Part shown: piece after piece, positions 25,784 through 61,892 of the stretch
How positions within the stretch are numbered: position 1 is the first letter of the stretch
Layout: each line of letters starts with the position of its first letter
Assembly (NCBI GenBank): GCA_020725425.1
Contig: DYFA01000061.1
Coordinates: forward strand, 59,330-123,329
DNA from: Aneurinibacillus sp.
GTDB lineage: Bacteria > Bacillota > UBA5301 > DYFA01
Length of the DNA stretch: 64,000 bases
Direction of reading: 5' to 3'
Made by a program: the position numbers and the translations under genes
The notes under the pieces: model-generated
The model's database searches: none
What the model saw: only the letters and a program-made list of their open reading frames with translations
What the model was told of the DNA's origin: nothing

Positions 25784-25812
25784 TTGACCCTGTGGACAAC
25801 CTAAGGTATACT
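25784..25812 (+). promoter_or_regulatory. Promoter of veg
   Basis: TTGACC (25784-25789), a 17-bp spacer and TATACT (25807-25812). The veg promoter is also a strong sigma-A promoter in B. subtilis. Confidence 0.8.
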
Positions 25813-25851: not shown

Positions 25852-26124
25852 TTGCCCAAAGGGTTGGCACGAACCAACGTGCTTGACCTGATTCGCGAGG
25901 ACCTGGATTCGTACGTGGGGAAGCAGGTTATCGTGCGGGCCAATCGCGGCCGCCGTAAAGTCGACGAGGTCGAAGGAATCCTCGAGCATACTTACCCCAG
26001 GCTGTTTGTCGTCACACCGCTGGATCGAACCCCCTTCAAGCGGCACTCCTACACCTACTGTGACGTGCTGACCTCCAGCGTCGAAGTGATGCACAACGGC
26101 GCGCGGATCGGCTACACCAAGTGA
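25852..26124 (+). CDS. veg: Veg protein
   Basis: TTG 25852, six bases behind AGAGGTGAT, gives 90 residues matching Veg (DUF1021): LDLIREDLDSYVGKQVIVRANRGRRKV, GILEHTYPRLFVV and SYTYCDVLTSSVEV. In B. subtilis Veg stimulates biofilm matrix genes by antagonising SinR and lies between yabG and sspF near rsmA. The same neighbourhood with yabE and rsmA is seen here. Confidence 0.93.
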   Translation: MPKGLARTNVLDLIREDLDSYVGKQVIVRANRGRRKVDEVEGILEHTYPRLFVVTPLDRTPFKRHSYTYCDVLTSSVEVMHNGARIGYTK

Positions 26125-26209
26125 CGATGACAGGAGACGGACTTCCGTTCCAAGCACGGCGCCTTCCCCTTTCCGGGAGTTCGACGGCGGCCCGCCGCTG
26201 GAATAGGGG

Positions 26210-26344
26210 AAGATCGCTAAGAGGTTCAGGGTCTGGCAGGTGGGATCGCCCACCTGCAACGAGAGTTGCCGTCCTGAAGGACGCAAGTCGGGTTGCTGGC
26301 CTACTCGGAGGCGAGCCAGAGCCTGATGATACGTTAGCGATCTT
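26210..26344. ncRNA. Highly structured RNA candidate, family unknown
   Basis: A perfect 11-bp outer stem (AAGATCGCTAA / TTAGCGATCTT) encloses a second 12-bp stem with one mismatch (TCAGGGTCTGGC / GCCAGAGCCTGA). Inside are hairpins CAGGTGGG-ATCG-CCCACCTG, CAAC-GAGA-GTTG (a GNRA loop) and CGTCC-TGAA-GGACG. This compact 135-base multibranch fold fills the gene-free interval between veg and the atp terminator. No ORF fits. I could not match it to a known riboswitch, 6S, SRP, RNase P or tmRNA. The strand is undecided. Confidence 0.55.
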
Positions 26345-26373
26345 CCGCTTTGTAGAATATCCCCCTTGCCCCC

Positions 26374-26429
26374 AAAATAAACGCAGGCCGGCTGGCTCTC
26401 CGCTCTGGAAAATTCAACCGGCCCGCGTT
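26374..26429 (-). terminator. Terminator of the truncated atp operon
   Basis: On the minus strand AACGC-GGCCGG pairs with CCGGCC-GCGTT around one mismatch, and the hairpin is followed by TTTATTTT, 23 bp beyond the atpF stop. It shows that the operon truly ends after atpF. Confidence 0.75.
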
Positions 26430-26451
26430 GAATTTGTCGTCGCTGGCACCT

Positions 26452-26973
26452 TCAGGACTTGATGTTCATCGCCGAGTCGAGCTGGTCCACGCAGGACCGC
26501 ACGATGCGCTCGTTGTCCTCCACTGTGATGACCCGGTCCAACAGTTTGCTGGTGGCGAAGACCGTCAGGTTGGCGATCTCGCTCCGGATGTCCATCAAGA
26601 CCTTTTCTTTCTCTTTCTGAATATCGGCCCGGGCCCGCTGGAAGATCTTCAACGCCTCCTGCTCCGCCTGTTCGACCATCTCGCGCTTGAGCTCTTCGCC
26701 CTGCTTGGTGGCCTGAGCCAGCAGGTTGTCCGCATCCTGCTTGGCGTTGGCCATCATCCGCTGGTACTCGGCGAGCAGGTTCTCGGCCTCTTTCTTGGTT
26801 GCCGCGGCCTGCGCCAGCGAGTTTTCGATGAACGACTCACGCCGGGCCAGGATGTCCGATACCGGCTTGAACAAGACTTTATAGAGCAGGTAGACCACGA
26901 TGCCTACGTTTACGGCTTGAAAGATAAAGGTGGGAATGTGGAACGGAGAGATGCCACCGCCTTCAGCCGACAT
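26452..26973 (-). CDS. atpF: F-type ATP synthase subunit b
   Basis: The ATG complementary to 26971-26973 follows AGGAGGGGGG. The 173-residue protein has one N-terminal membrane helix (about 11-30, FIFQAVNVGIVVYLLYKVLF) and a long charged alpha-helix (35-165), the peripheral stalk that ties F1 to Fo through the delta subunit. The sequence is typical (FKPVSDILARRESFIENSL). It is the last gene of the cluster: no atpHAGDC follows, only a terminator. Confidence 0.92.
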   Translation of the reverse strand: MSAEGGGISPFHIPTFIFQAVNVGIVVYLLYKVLFKPVSDILARRESFIENSLAQAAATKKEAENLLAEYQRMMANAKQDADNLLAQATKQGEELKREMVEQAEQEALKIFQRARADIQKEKEKVLMDIRSEIANLTVFATSKLLDRVITVEDNERIVRSCVDQLDSAMNIKS

Positions 26974-27061
26974 TTCCGTGCCCCCCTCCTGCCGGAAAAT
27001 CCCTGAGCGCCGTGCGCCGGAAGGGTTGCCGGGGGATCCCCCGGCAACCCGGAGCGCCCCT

Positions 27062-27292
27062 CTACTTGATCTTGGTCCACATCAGGATGGCCATAACAAA
27101 GGTAAACAGAGTCAGAGCTTCCATCATGGCCAGGGCCAGAAGGAGCGTCGTGCGGATATCGCCGGCCACCTCCGGCTGGCGCGACATCCCCTCCATAGCC
27201 TTCCCGGTCGCAAAAGCCTGACCTATGGCTGAAGAAATCGCCACTAGGGCGAGGGTGATGCCGACCGGCAGCAGAGTAAGTGCCAGATTCAT
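27062..27292 (-). CDS. atpE: F-type ATP synthase subunit c
   Basis: This 76-residue hairpin protein has two membrane helices joined by the polar loop SRQPE. The ion-carrying Glu is in [12 protein letters not shown]. The helix-1 Gln of Na+ rings is kept ([11 protein letters not shown]), but the ES/ET pair after the Glu is EA here, so proton use is the likelier reading. The proteolipid forms the rotor ring. Confidence 0.93.
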
Positions 27293-27327
27293 TCATTTCT
27301 CCCCCCTTTCCAAAGCAACAGCGAGAA

Positions 27328-28026
27328 CTAGTGCCCCTTGAGGATTCCTGTGAGGTAGCTGGTGGTGAGCAAGGTGAAGACGAATGCTTGCACCAGACCC
27401 ATGAGCGCGCCGAGAATCATGACCGGTGTCGGGAGGAAGAGCGGCGCCAGGATGAAAAGCACCGTGACTACCATCTTTTCCCCGAACATGTTTCCGAACA
27501 ACCGGATGGCCAGGGTGAAGGGTCTCATCAGCTCCTCGATCAGGGTCAACGGGGCCATGATCGGCGAGGGTGAGGTGTAATGGTGGATGTAGTGCTTGAG
27601 CCCCTTTTTCTTGGCCCCGATAACGTGCACCGTCAGGATGGCGAAGGCCCCCAGGCCGAACGTGGTCGAGAAGTCGGTGACCGGCGGGAGCATGTTAGGA
27701 ATGAGCCAGGACAGGTTGAGCGTCATCACCGCAATGAACATGCCGCCGATGAACCAGAGGTACTTGCGGCCCTCCCGGCCGAACGCCGGTTCGAGCAGGC
27801 CGTAGATAAACTCGACGAGCATCTCGAGCACGGACTGGAGCTTGCTCGGCTTGTTTTCCGAGAGCCGGCGGGTGGCGAGGTAACACAGGATCACCACGAT
27901 CCCCCAGATGATCCAGGTGTTGGCCACAGTCGAGGTGAGCCACGGAAGGCCGAACACGGGTTTCCGGTCGAAGTGCGAAAGGATGTTCGCCAGCTCGTGC
28001 ATTTTTTCCGGAGTCATGAAATTCAT
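27328..28026 (-). CDS. atpB: F-type ATP synthase subunit a
   Basis: This 232-residue membrane protein with five to six helices has the family signature EELMRPFTLAIRLFGNMFGEKM; the Arg in AIRLFGN is the essential stator residue facing the c ring. LVQAFVFTLLTTSYL near the C-terminus is also typical. Start codon ATG complementary to 28024-28026. Confidence 0.94.
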   Translation of the reverse strand: MNFMTPEKMHELANILSHFDRKPVFGLPWLTSTVANTWIIWGIVVILCYLATRRLSENKPSKLQSVLEMLVEFIYGLLEPAFGREGRKYLWFIGGMFIAVMTLNLSWLIPNMLPPVTDFSTTFGLGAFAILTVHVIGAKKKGLKHYIHHYTSPSPIMAPLTLIEELMRPFTLAIRLFGNMFGEKMVVTVLFILAPLFLPTPVMILGALMGLVQAFVFTLLTTSYLTGILKGH

Positions 28027-28035
28027 GCCCTGCCC

Positions 28036-28380
28036 TCACTCCTTTTTCTTGCCGGGGTTCTGGCCCCGGCGAACCCGGGCTTTCTTAAAGTAGAGGCGCC
28101 GCAGGTTCATCGCCCGCTGGTATACGGGGGAGACTTCCTCGTGTTCGACGAAGTCCGTCTCCTTCATACTGGTCAAAGTCTCGTAGAGACTCTTGAAAGC
28201 CACGACCGTCCCGAGCACAATCCCTGACACCAAGAAGAGGGGCGTCGTCTTGTACCGGTGATCGAGCCAGTTGCCCAGCCAAGCTCCTCCGCCTACGGCA
28301 AAGACCAGCGTGAAGCCAAAAGACAGAGCGACGTTGCCATACTTTGCGAATAGGTAGAGGTCGTTCTGCTTCCGGGCCAC
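28036..28380 (-). CDS. AtpZ/AtpI-family accessory protein
   Basis: GTG complementary to 28378-28380, behind GGAGGAAGG, gives 114 residues; the longer track ORF has no ribosome site. Two membrane segments (about 15-36 and 45-68) with GGGAWLGNWLDHRYKTTPLF match AtpZ/AtpI proteins, which assist c-ring assembly or cation uptake and begin many atp operons. Tail: basic, RRGQNPGKKK. Confidence 0.8.
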   Translation of the reverse strand: MARKQNDLYLFAKYGNVALSFGFTLVFAVGGGAWLGNWLDHRYKTTPLFLVSGIVLGTVVAFKSLYETLTSMKETDFVEHEEVSPVYQRAMNLRRLYFKKARVRRGQNPGKKKE

Positions 28381-28562
28381 GTTGCACCTTCCTCCGGACA
28401 GGCCCGCCGAGTCGGTTTCCGTTTTAGAGCTAGAAGTAGTGATGTTATATTCGTCCTGGGCCGGCCAACTCCTCCCGAATCGCGTTGCCGGTCTGCGATT
28501 ATTTTTCATAAATTCCGCCAAAAACGGGCTGGAGTCCGGGTTACGGCGGATAGCGCCTCTCC

Positions 28563-29975: not shown

Positions 29976-30051
29976 GAGCCATTAGCTCAGTTGGTAGAGC
30001 ACCGGACTTTTAATCCGGGTGTCCCGAGTTCGAGTCTCGGATGGCTCACCA
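29976..30051 (+). tRNA. tRNA-Lys (anticodon TTT)
   Basis: A complete cloverleaf with acceptor GAGCCAT / ATGGCTC, anticodon arm CCGGA-CTTTTAA-TCCGG, T arm with GTTCGAGTC and encoded CCA. Confidence 0.97.
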
Positions 30052-30060
30052 TTCTTATCT

Positions 30061-30136
30061 GCCCCCATCGTCTAGAGGCCTAGGACACCGGCCCTTCAAG
30101 CCGGCGGCACGGGTTCGAATCCCGTTGGGGGTACCA
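30061..30136 (+). tRNA. tRNA-Glu (anticodon TTC)
   Basis: Acceptor GCCCCCA / TGGGGGT with G-U at the first pair, anticodon arm CCGGC-CCTTCAA-GCCGG, T loop GTTCGAATC, encoded CCA. Nine bases after tRNA-Lys, so probably co-transcribed. Confidence 0.96.
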
Positions 30137-30192
30137 CTTTGCCCAGAGCGGCGACACCCGACCCGCGCCATCCGCCAAGGGGAGCCTGCGTG

Positions 30193-30221
30193 TTGACATC
30201 GCATACCGCCAGTGGTACAAT
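30193..30221 (+). promoter_or_regulatory. Promoter of tRNA-Val
   Basis: TTGACA (30193-30198), 17-bp spacer and TACAAT (30216-30221), 13 bp before the tRNA. Confidence 0.8.
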
Positions 30222-30234
30222 TGACAATGCTCTC

Positions 30235-30311
30235 GGTCGCATAGCTCAGTTGGTTAGAGCGCTACGCTCACATCGTAGAGGTCCTTGGTTCGAATCCAAG
30301 TGCGACCACCA
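30235..30311 (+). tRNA. tRNA-Val (anticodon CAC), integration target of the element
   Basis: A complete 77-base cloverleaf: acceptor GGTCGCA / TGCGACC, anticodon arm CTACG-CTCACAT-CGTAG, T loop GTTCGAATC, encoded CCA. Its 3' half (from 30266) is duplicated at 37743-37788, so the integrated element has rebuilt the end of the tRNA gene. Confidence 0.97.
30266..30311 (+). repeat. attL core (46-bp direct repeat, within tRNA-Val)
   Basis: Identical to 37743-37788. It begins GCTCACATCGTAGAGG and ends with the CCACCA of the tRNA; the sequences diverge immediately outside on both sides. Confidence 0.95.
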
Positions 30312-30323
30312 CCGAAAAAGCCC

Positions 30324-30356
30324 TCCCGGAGCCGGTTTCAAGGCCCCGGGATTTTT
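30324..30356 (+). terminator. Element-borne terminator after tRNA-Val
   Basis: TCCCGG...CCGGGA closes an imperfect hairpin followed by TTTTTCG, starting 12 bp after the tRNA CCA. It overlaps the last codons of the integrase gene on the other strand and replaces the native terminator now displaced to 37801. Confidence 0.6.
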
Positions 30357-31630
30357 CGTGTCTTGGCGCTTTTGGCCCCTACTGTAGCCAAACTGTAGCC
30401 AATCTCCGTAAGCTCCGCGGTGAACTGGTCCATGGCCCGGGCCGCCTTCTCGTCCTGGCCGGGCATCAGGTGGCCGTACAGGTCTAGCGTGATGCGGATG
30501 TTCTCGTGGCCCAGGCGCCGGGAGACGGACATCACGTCAACCCCCTGAGCGAGGAGCAGGGCGGCGTGAGTATGCCGGAAGGTGTGCAACTTGACCCCGG
30601 CGAGAAGCTTTTCGGCGGCGGCCTGGGCGTCCGTCCGGGTGGCGCCCGCCTTCTCATACTCTTCAGCCGCCAGCCGGCGGGCGTTTCGTATGACCCGGCC
30701 GAGGTCCCGGCCGTCTACGTTCGTGCGGCGCAGCATCCCCCCTTTCTCGTTGGTGAAGACGAGCCCGGTATTCTCCCAGGCGGCGCCGGCCCGCAACCGT
30801 TCCTCTGCCTGGCGGCGGCGCTGGCGGTGTAGGGCTTCGAGGGCGGCCTGCGGGAGCGCGATGGTGCGCTGGGCGGCCTTGGTTTTGACGGGACCGATGA
30901 AGACTTGGCCGTTCTCTTCGTGCAGGGCCTGGCGGATCGTGATGGCGCCCTTCGAGAGGTCCACCGCATCCCAGGGAAGCCCCAGCCATTCTCCCGGCCT
31001 GCACCCGGTATTGAGGGCGAGAATGAAGCCGTCCTCCAGCCGCTCACCCCGCGCGCCCTCCAGGAACCAGCGGACCTCCTCCGGCGTCATGAAGCGGGCT
31101 TCATGGCGGCCGGGCGAGCGCTTCGCCGCAAGCTTCGCTGGGTTGCGGGGGATGAGCCCTTTCGCGACGGCGTCTTCGAGCGCTGAGCGCAGGATCGAAG
31201 CCACGTCGAAGACGGTGCGGGGCGCCAGGCCCTGCTCGTCGAGCTTCGCGTACAGGGCGTTGATGCGCCGGTAATCCAGGTCCCGGAGGCGCAGGCTCCC
31301 CAAGAACGGGATGACGTGTTTTTCAAGGTTGAACCGGTATCGCAGGAAGGTGCCGGAGCGCACCTGGCCCTTCTTTGTCAGGAGCCAGTCTGTAAGGTGC
31401 TCCTGGACGGTGATTCTCTCGGGCTTCACGGGCAGGCCCTGAAGCGCGTCCTGCTGGAGCTTCAGGAGCTTCTCCTGCGCTTCTTTCTTCGTTCGGCCGT
31501 AGACCGTCACCCGCTGGCGCTTCCCGTCCGGGCCGTACCCCATGCTGAGCGAGCCGGTCCACACGCCGTCGGCCCGCTGGAAGACGGCTCCTTCCCCACG
31601 GCCGCGGCGCTTCTTTGACTCCTTAGCCAT
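30338..31630 (-). CDS. int: Tyrosine site-specific integrase
   Basis: The 430-residue protein starts at the ATG complementary to 31628-31630, behind AAGGAGA. It has an AP2-like arm-binding domain (about 1-60, basic, GRGEGAVFQRADGVWTGSL), a SAM-like core-binding domain (about 70-165) and a catalytic domain (about 175-415). The catalytic residues are present: Arg in NTGCRPGEWL, Lys in VKTKAAQRT, H-R in HTFRHTHAALLL, His in LGHENI and Tyr in LDLYGHL. It catalyses insertion at tRNA-Val. The gene end lies next to attL, and its final codons include one arm-type repeat pair. Confidence 0.95.
   Translation of the reverse strand: MAKESKKRRGRGEGAVFQRADGVWTGSLSMGYGPDGKRQRVTVYGRTKKEAQEKLLKLQQDALQGLPVKPERITVQEHLTDWLLTKKGQVRSGTFLRYRFNLEKHVIPFLGSLRLRDLDYRRINALYAKLDEQGLAPRTVFDVASILRSALEDAVAKGLIPRNPAKLAAKRSPGRHEARFMTPEEVRWFLEGARGERLEDGFILALNTGCRPGEWLGLPWDAVDLSKGAITIRQALHEENGQVFIGPVKTKAAQRTIALPQAALEALHRQRRRQAEERLRAGAAWENTGLVFTNEKGGMLRRTNVDGRDLGRVIRNARRLAAEEYEKAGATRTDAQAAAEKLLAGVKLHTFRHTHAALLLAQGVDVMSVSRRLGHENIRITLDLYGHLMPGQDEKAARAMDQFTAELTEIGYSLATVGAKSAKTRKIPGP
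30381..30402 (+). repeat. Arm-type integrase site pair near attL
   Basis: Two tandem copies of CTGTAGCCAA with an 11-bp period, identical over 22 bp to 37604-37625 near attR and in the same orientation. Placement inside both ends fits integrase arm-binding sites. Confidence 0.65.
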
Positions 31631-61019: not shown

Positions 61020-61376
61020 GTGGGGAATGCTCAGGAAAAGGCCGAGCGGGGCGCGCCTCTTGGCCACCCGGTGGCCCGAGTGGTGACCGCGGGGGACATC
61101 AGTTCCCAGCTGCGCCAAGAGGCCGCCGCCAAGATCCGGAAACTGGTCGGTGACGCCGTGGAAGTGGTGTTTGAAGTCGACCCGGCCATCATCGGCGGAA
61201 TGGTGGTCCACCTGCCCGACCGGGTGATCGACCTGAGCCTGGCCGGCCGGTTCCGGAGTTACGGCCGGGCGGTTCAGGAGATCATCGGGAGCCATCTTCA
61301 AGCTCTGGAAGGCTGGGCCAGAGCCGAGGGGTCTCCGGCGCTCAGCGTTGCGGGGCTGGCGGCAGGAAAGGAGTAG
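61020..61376 (+). CDS. F-ATPase delta (OSCP) C-terminal-domain-like protein, copy 1
   Basis: GTG 61020 behind GAGGAGGGGG gives 118 residues. The pattern ARVVTAGDISSQLRQEAAAKIRKLVGDAVEVVFEVDPAIIGGMVVHLPDRVIDLSLAGRFRSY is that of the C-terminal domain of the ATP synthase delta subunit (usual form: D..LIGG..V.IGD.V.D.S....L). The N-terminal helical bundle that binds alpha is missing. The gene is not in an atp operon; it precedes a second similar gene. Confidence 0.7.
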   Translation: MGNAQEKAERGAPLGHPVARVVTAGDISSQLRQEAAAKIRKLVGDAVEVVFEVDPAIIGGMVVHLPDRVIDLSLAGRFRSYGRAVQEIIGSHLQALEGWARAEGSPALSVAGLAAGKE

Positions 61377-61382
61377 AGCGGC

Positions 61383-61892
61383 ATGGAGAACTGGCGGCGT
61401 CACATTGCCAAAGCCGAGGGCGTCACCGCAACCGTTCCGGAGTTGGCGGAGATGCGCCCGCTTTACCGGTCGGACCTGCGGGTGACGGTCCGCAGCGTCG
61501 AGCCGCTCTCTCCGGAGATCGTCAAGGCGATCGCCGACAAAGTGCGGCGGGCTTATCAGCGGGAGGTCCTGATCGAAGTCGAGCTCGATCCCTCCCTGCT
61601 CGGCGGGCTGGTGGTCATGATCGGCCACCGGGTCATCGACATGAGCCTGGCGACCCACCTGCGACGGATGTCCGCCCAGATCGCGCAACGCCTCGAGGAC
61701 GTGGTCAAGGAACTCGATCAGACCTGGGAGAGGCGCCTGAACACCCGGATGGAGGAGTTCGTGGCGGACATGCGCCGGCGGGTGCTTGAGCTCCCGGCGA
61801 GCGAGCCCGCCCCGTCGGCTGCCCGCGAGGTCGGCCTGAGCGCCGTTCCCGAGTCCGCCGAGGTCCTGGCGGCGGCTCCGGCCGAGACCTGA
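61383..61892 (+). CDS. F-ATPase delta (OSCP)-like protein with C-terminal coiled coil, copy 2
   Basis: ATG 61383 behind AAAGGAGTAG. 169 residues; about 38-100 repeat the delta signature (VTVRSVEPLSPEIVKAIADKVRRAYQREVLIEVELDPSLLGGLVVMIGHRVIDMSLATHLRRM). A charged helix follows (QRLEDVVKELDQTWERRLNTRMEEFVADMRRR), reminiscent of subunit b stalks, then an Ala/Pro-rich tail. The two genes may be co-translated partners that no longer serve F1. Confidence 0.7.
   Translation: MENWRRHIAKAEGVTATVPELAEMRPLYRSDLRVTVRSVEPLSPEIVKAIADKVRRAYQREVLIEVELDPSLLGGLVVMIGHRVIDMSLATHLRRMSAQIAQRLEDVVKELDQTWERRLNTRMEEFVADMRRRVLELPASEPAPSAAREVGLSAVPESAEVLAAAPAET

Follow-up and report, generated by a model that had tools for sequence, protein, structure and literature searches.

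What, if anything, is encoded between the converging genes veg and atpF? In the window, the whole 64,000-nt stretch of DNA analysed here, veg (PF06257; 25831..26124, + strand, with an ORF that could start at 25792) ends at 26124 and the stop of the called atpF gene (26452..26973, - strand) lies at 26452. No credible gene was found in the interval between the two stops (26124-26452), as an earlier note, made from the sequence alone, had stated. That note placed a compact structured RNA of no recognizable class in the gap, at 26210-26344. Below we describe its fold, its relatives and its range, and we weigh what it may be for.

Fold of the element

The structured element is a four-armed fold of 137 nt at 26209-26345, defined by folding, by model searches and by the folds of its relatives, and given here in the sense of the veg strand (+), its putative strand. 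It therefore extends one base further on each side than first proposed. Its minimum free energy (26210-26344, +) was -74.5 kcal/mol against -46.7 +/- 4.0 for shuffled sequences (z -6.97; 0/200 as good), and the minus strand gave a z-score of -6.74. The computed fold contains both the two nested stems and the three internal hairpins that had been read by eye. The outer stem, P1, pairs GAAGAUCGCUAA (26209..26220, +) with UUAGCGAUCUUC (26334..26345, +); it is evident from the fold and from the arms of the inverted repeat around the element (26205-26220/26334-26349), and 7 of its 12 pairs covary across four families. The terminal stem is thus perfect, as the earlier note claimed, but has 12 rather than 11 pairs.

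P1 is followed by an internal loop. Its 5' side, GAGGU (26221..26225, +; ACCUC on the minus strand), is invariant in 4/4 families, and its 3' side, UGAUACG (26327..26333, +), reads UUUAACU, UGGACG and UUAACG in the relatives. P2 joins 26226..26237 to 26315..26326 (+) with a one-base mismatch (26231 and 26321), and covariation in 8/12 pairs supports the fold. Three arms lie within it, all on the + strand. P3 (26238..26255) is a 7-bp hairpin with the loop AUCG, of which 5/7 pairs covary. P4 (26256..26296) has a 5-bp base, internal loops and the tip loop UGAA; fold and covariation support its five outer pairs well, and the inner part is variable. Lastly, the segment 26297..26314 forms the P5 hairpin and the flanking U..GA of the four-way junction, again by fold and covariation. 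The GNRA loop reported earlier was not found, as neither the + strand loops (AUCG, UGAA and ACUCGG) nor their complements are GNRA.

Relatives and range in the phylum

A DNA-level search of 60 other genomes gave no relative of the element. Since the sequence is too diverged for such a search, structure models were needed. The class comprises seven genomes in our collection, all of which have veg. A covariance model (R1) built only from the window's copy of the element matched 3' of veg in genomes G001 (56.8 bits, E 6e-12) and G004 (28.6 bits, E 6e-5). A further relative, 3' of veg in G002, was first spotted by eye, and a model built without G002 (R3) recovered it in the correct register (47.1 bits, E 9e-10). 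The four genomes with the element belong to four different families of the one class, and each has a single copy at the junction of veg with the convergent atpF.

All four share one plan: P1 of 10-12 bp, the internal loop, P2 with a purine mismatch, and the four-way junction of P3, P4 and P5. The consensus of the loop is GAGGU opposite U-NN-(A)ACG/ACU. The heptamer AAGAGGU is identical at 7/7 bases in all four sequences, and the stems around it change. The fold of each of the three relatives had a shuffle z-score of -5 to -8. In a hand-made four-sequence alignment, with gaps filled by N and the variable interior trimmed, both-side changes occurred in 30/47 pairs (shuffle mean 12.5, sd 2.5; 0/500 reach 30), and 87.5% of cells pair, compared with 28-44% when partners were slid by 1-3 columns; because the structure guided the manual alignment, these counts are biased towards it, and independent support comes from the R1 and R3 searches. 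The covariation check on intergenic regions downstream of veg, which the earlier note had recommended, thus shows stems kept by compensatory changes, and with z-scores of about -7 in the window its central claim of a compact structured RNA holds. With independent homologs and both-side changes, this is a real, conserved family of structured RNAs, of which four members are known.

The note had named a MITE-like inverted repeat as its own alternative, and a DNA cruciform site is a related idea. Perfect 12-bp terminal repeats are what such elements would show, and the wobble pairs are so few that pairing is nearly symmetrical on both strands. However, MITE and REP-type repeats occur in several copies at variable locations, and here there is one copy per genome at a fixed place in four families. 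In addition, the internal hairpins and the junction covary, which neither transposition nor a simple cruciform requires. This reading is therefore largely refuted, and we regard it as very improbable.

How far does the family reach? A search of 399 phylum genomes from 267 genera with the covariance model from all four sequences (R2), under strict filters, gave no credible match beyond the four members. A pair of weak matches from this search (18.8 and 17.6 bits, in G264 and G047) was rejected: that in G047 lies inside a long coding frame, and the G264 match is truncated and lacks the GAGGU loop. Applied directly to the veg loci of 105 further genomes of the phylum and of three of a fifth family of the class, the same model found nothing credible. 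In this fifth family (G003, G005 and G006) veg is followed only by short, simple terminator-like hairpins; it either lost the element or never had it, the Veg tree being too weak to choose. Because veg is widespread (278/399 genomes) and the element occurs in four, the element is not an obligate partner of Veg. An atpF gene facing veg was seen at 7/112 veg loci, all seven from the class, although in most of the other loci the sequence past veg extends little beyond 1 kb. The junction that carries the element is thus a rearranged one, special to the class.

The ATP synthase genes of this genome are split. The operon at 26452-28521 (-) ends at atpF, and atpH is on another contig; at locus L144 atpA adjoins atpH. 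All seven genomes of the class have atpF facing veg and the full-length atpH on a different contig. At 61071-61679 (+), two additional segments lying close together match the C-terminal half of OSCP/atpH (PF00213); similar partial matches occur in the fifth family and on another contig of this genome. A comparison by eye of the conserved loop with the atpH leader for base pairing found nothing shared. Three tRNA genes stand in a row at 29976-30308 and are directly followed by an integrase-like frame (30338-31630, -); judged from the sequence, 29976-31630 is likely a tRNA-associated integrated element.

Strand and possible role

Two sets of observations lean in opposite directions on the strand. 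The first, wobble pairs and shuffle z-scores, leans to the atp strand. The aligned helices hold five A.C and no G.U pairs when read on the veg strand; on the atp strand the same five cells become G.U and none is A.C. A two-sided test on these five events gives p about 0.06, and the signal is weaker still if they share descent. The fraction of cells paired is 89.7% on the atp strand versus 87.5% on the veg strand, and the z-scores of the relatives are -6.3, -7.3 and -7.8 versus -5.3, -5.2 and -5.5. The second set, loop purines and downstream terminators, leans to the veg strand. Structured RNA usually has purine-rich unpaired bases and purine-purine mismatches. Read on the veg strand, the unpaired bases are purine-rich in 3/4 sequences, as scored against an approximate composition, and the mismatches are purine-purine. 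On balance, we slightly prefer the veg strand.

The terminators differ among the genomes. In G002 a hairpin with U6, and in G001 a GC hairpin with AAAUUUUU, follow the element on the veg strand only, and in G004 AGUUUUAU comes directly after P1 on that strand. P1 begins about 3 nt after the veg stop in G004, about 28 nt after it in G002, and about 84 and 98 nt after it in the other two. A location between the veg stop and a terminator on the veg strand fits G002 and G004. In G001 another terminator-like hairpin stands between the veg gene and the element. The hairpin downstream of the element in the window (26378..26424) is better on the other strand: there it is followed by UUUAUUUU and, from sequence and fold, is a probable terminator of the atp operon (-), which would end transcription before the element, while its + strand tail is the poorer UUGAAUUU. 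A promoter-like site, TTGACC-17-TATACT (25784..25812, +), lies upstream of veg, and the relatives have stronger promoter-like sites there than the window.

The position of the element, with a strongly promoted gene before it and a terminator after it, suggests that it belongs to the 3' part of the veg transcript. We favour, tentatively and at somewhat less than even probability, a structured noncoding RNA of ~137 nt that is made in this way and uses its internal loop as a recognition site. The strongly promoted veg transcript would run through the element and end at the terminator just downstream of it. P1 would close the element and shield its ends, and P2 would lead into the four-way junction of P3, P4 and P5. 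A protein or another RNA would recognise the invariant internal loop that separates P1 from P2 (GAGGU / (A)ACG), and the element may be released as a separate RNA. We infer the strand and co-transcription with veg from position and composition; release and binding by the loop are possible further steps.

The same RNA could instead come from the minus strand: a small RNA encoded downstream of the split atp operon, with its ACCUC pairing to the ribosome-binding sites of target mRNAs. On that strand the unpaired, invariant ACCUC (ACCUCUUG with P1) stands next to UUG and resembles an anti-Shine-Dalgarno sequence, and a U-rich stretch comes directly after P1 in 3/4. The G.U pairs, the higher paired fraction and the better z-scores of the relatives point the same way. 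However, in the window the strong terminator described above separates atpF from the element, and there is no good minus-strand promoter close to it. Furthermore, pyrimidines would dominate the unpaired bases and make up the mismatches (Y.Y), which is unusual in structured RNA, and five wobble events are few. We consider this reading from the atp strand possible but rather unlikely.

Alternatively, the element could be an elaborate 3' end, a terminator or exonuclease shield common to both convergent units and without a role beyond its own mRNA. Its location is always the veg/atpF junction, plain terminator hairpins occupy the equivalent spot in the fifth family, and G004 has a U-tract after P1 on either strand. 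Such a function seems unlikely, and somewhat more so than the atp-strand reading, since 3/4 genomes have a separate adjoining terminator, and a terminator can do without a four-way junction and without a five-base internal loop that stays invariant across families.

Lastly, the element could represent a functionally new class of structured RNA, either the RNA of a ribonucleoprotein with a dedicated partner, possibly Veg, or a new ribozyme, with the invariant loop below the four-way junction as the active part. The predicted model of Veg is a small basic barrel (pLDDT 79) with a weak likeness to Sm/Hfq-type folds, and the protein has an invariant basic stretch, A-N-x-G-R. Foldseek neighbours of the model include the Veg structure 3fb9 and, non-significantly (E 0.13 and up), archaeal Hfq and the RNase P protein Rpp29. 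These model-based likenesses make an RNA-binding Veg a lead only, and we judge a new functional class to be quite unlikely.

Comparison with known RNAs and meaning

In Rfam 15 no family reached its gathering score for the element on either strand, which agrees with the note's statement that no known riboswitch or housekeeping RNA matches. A loose scan (E up to 5) gave only a chance match to a microRNA model, far under cut-off, and the relatives had no match up to E = 1. Neither an Rfam hit nor a lack of conservation, which the note had listed among possible refutations, was observed. Twister-sister (RF02681) was absent from the matches in both scans. In its four-way form, a closing stem leads through an asymmetric internal loop into a second stem and then into a four-way junction. 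The element has a similar plan of stem, loop and junction, but the loop sequences differ. The sequence CUGAUGA, a hammerhead core, at 26323-26329 in the P2/loop region is not retained by the relatives, and a hammerhead was rejected. The element resembles 6S RNA (RF00013) in its long closing stem and as an abundant-type structured RNA, but 6S RNA is a rod with a central bubble, whereas the element has a four-way junction. A replaced 6S RNA was likewise rejected, the genome carrying its own elsewhere (its only match, on contig C64, 91.5 bits).

With orphan intergenic RNA motifs (PMC8632094, PMC6429828, PMC2864571) the element shares a conserved secondary structure, covariation and the lack of a known function, but it is absent from Rfam 15, has a very narrow range and is placed downstream of its gene, where two genes converge. 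Because of this position it is not a riboswitch-like leader. As in 3' UTR-derived small RNAs, a structured segment lies downstream of a strongly promoted gene and near a terminator; the element is far more structured than is usual for these. A literature search for veg together with noncoding RNA found nothing relevant.

The element is thus the first described member of a new RNA family of narrow distribution, confined to one class. The family is well supported, its fold is intricate and its loop invariant, and the lineage that carries it is represented by few genomes. Its members sit at a rearranged site, with the split ATP synthase genes facing veg, itself a gene of poorly understood function, and they give expression and binding tests a definite target.
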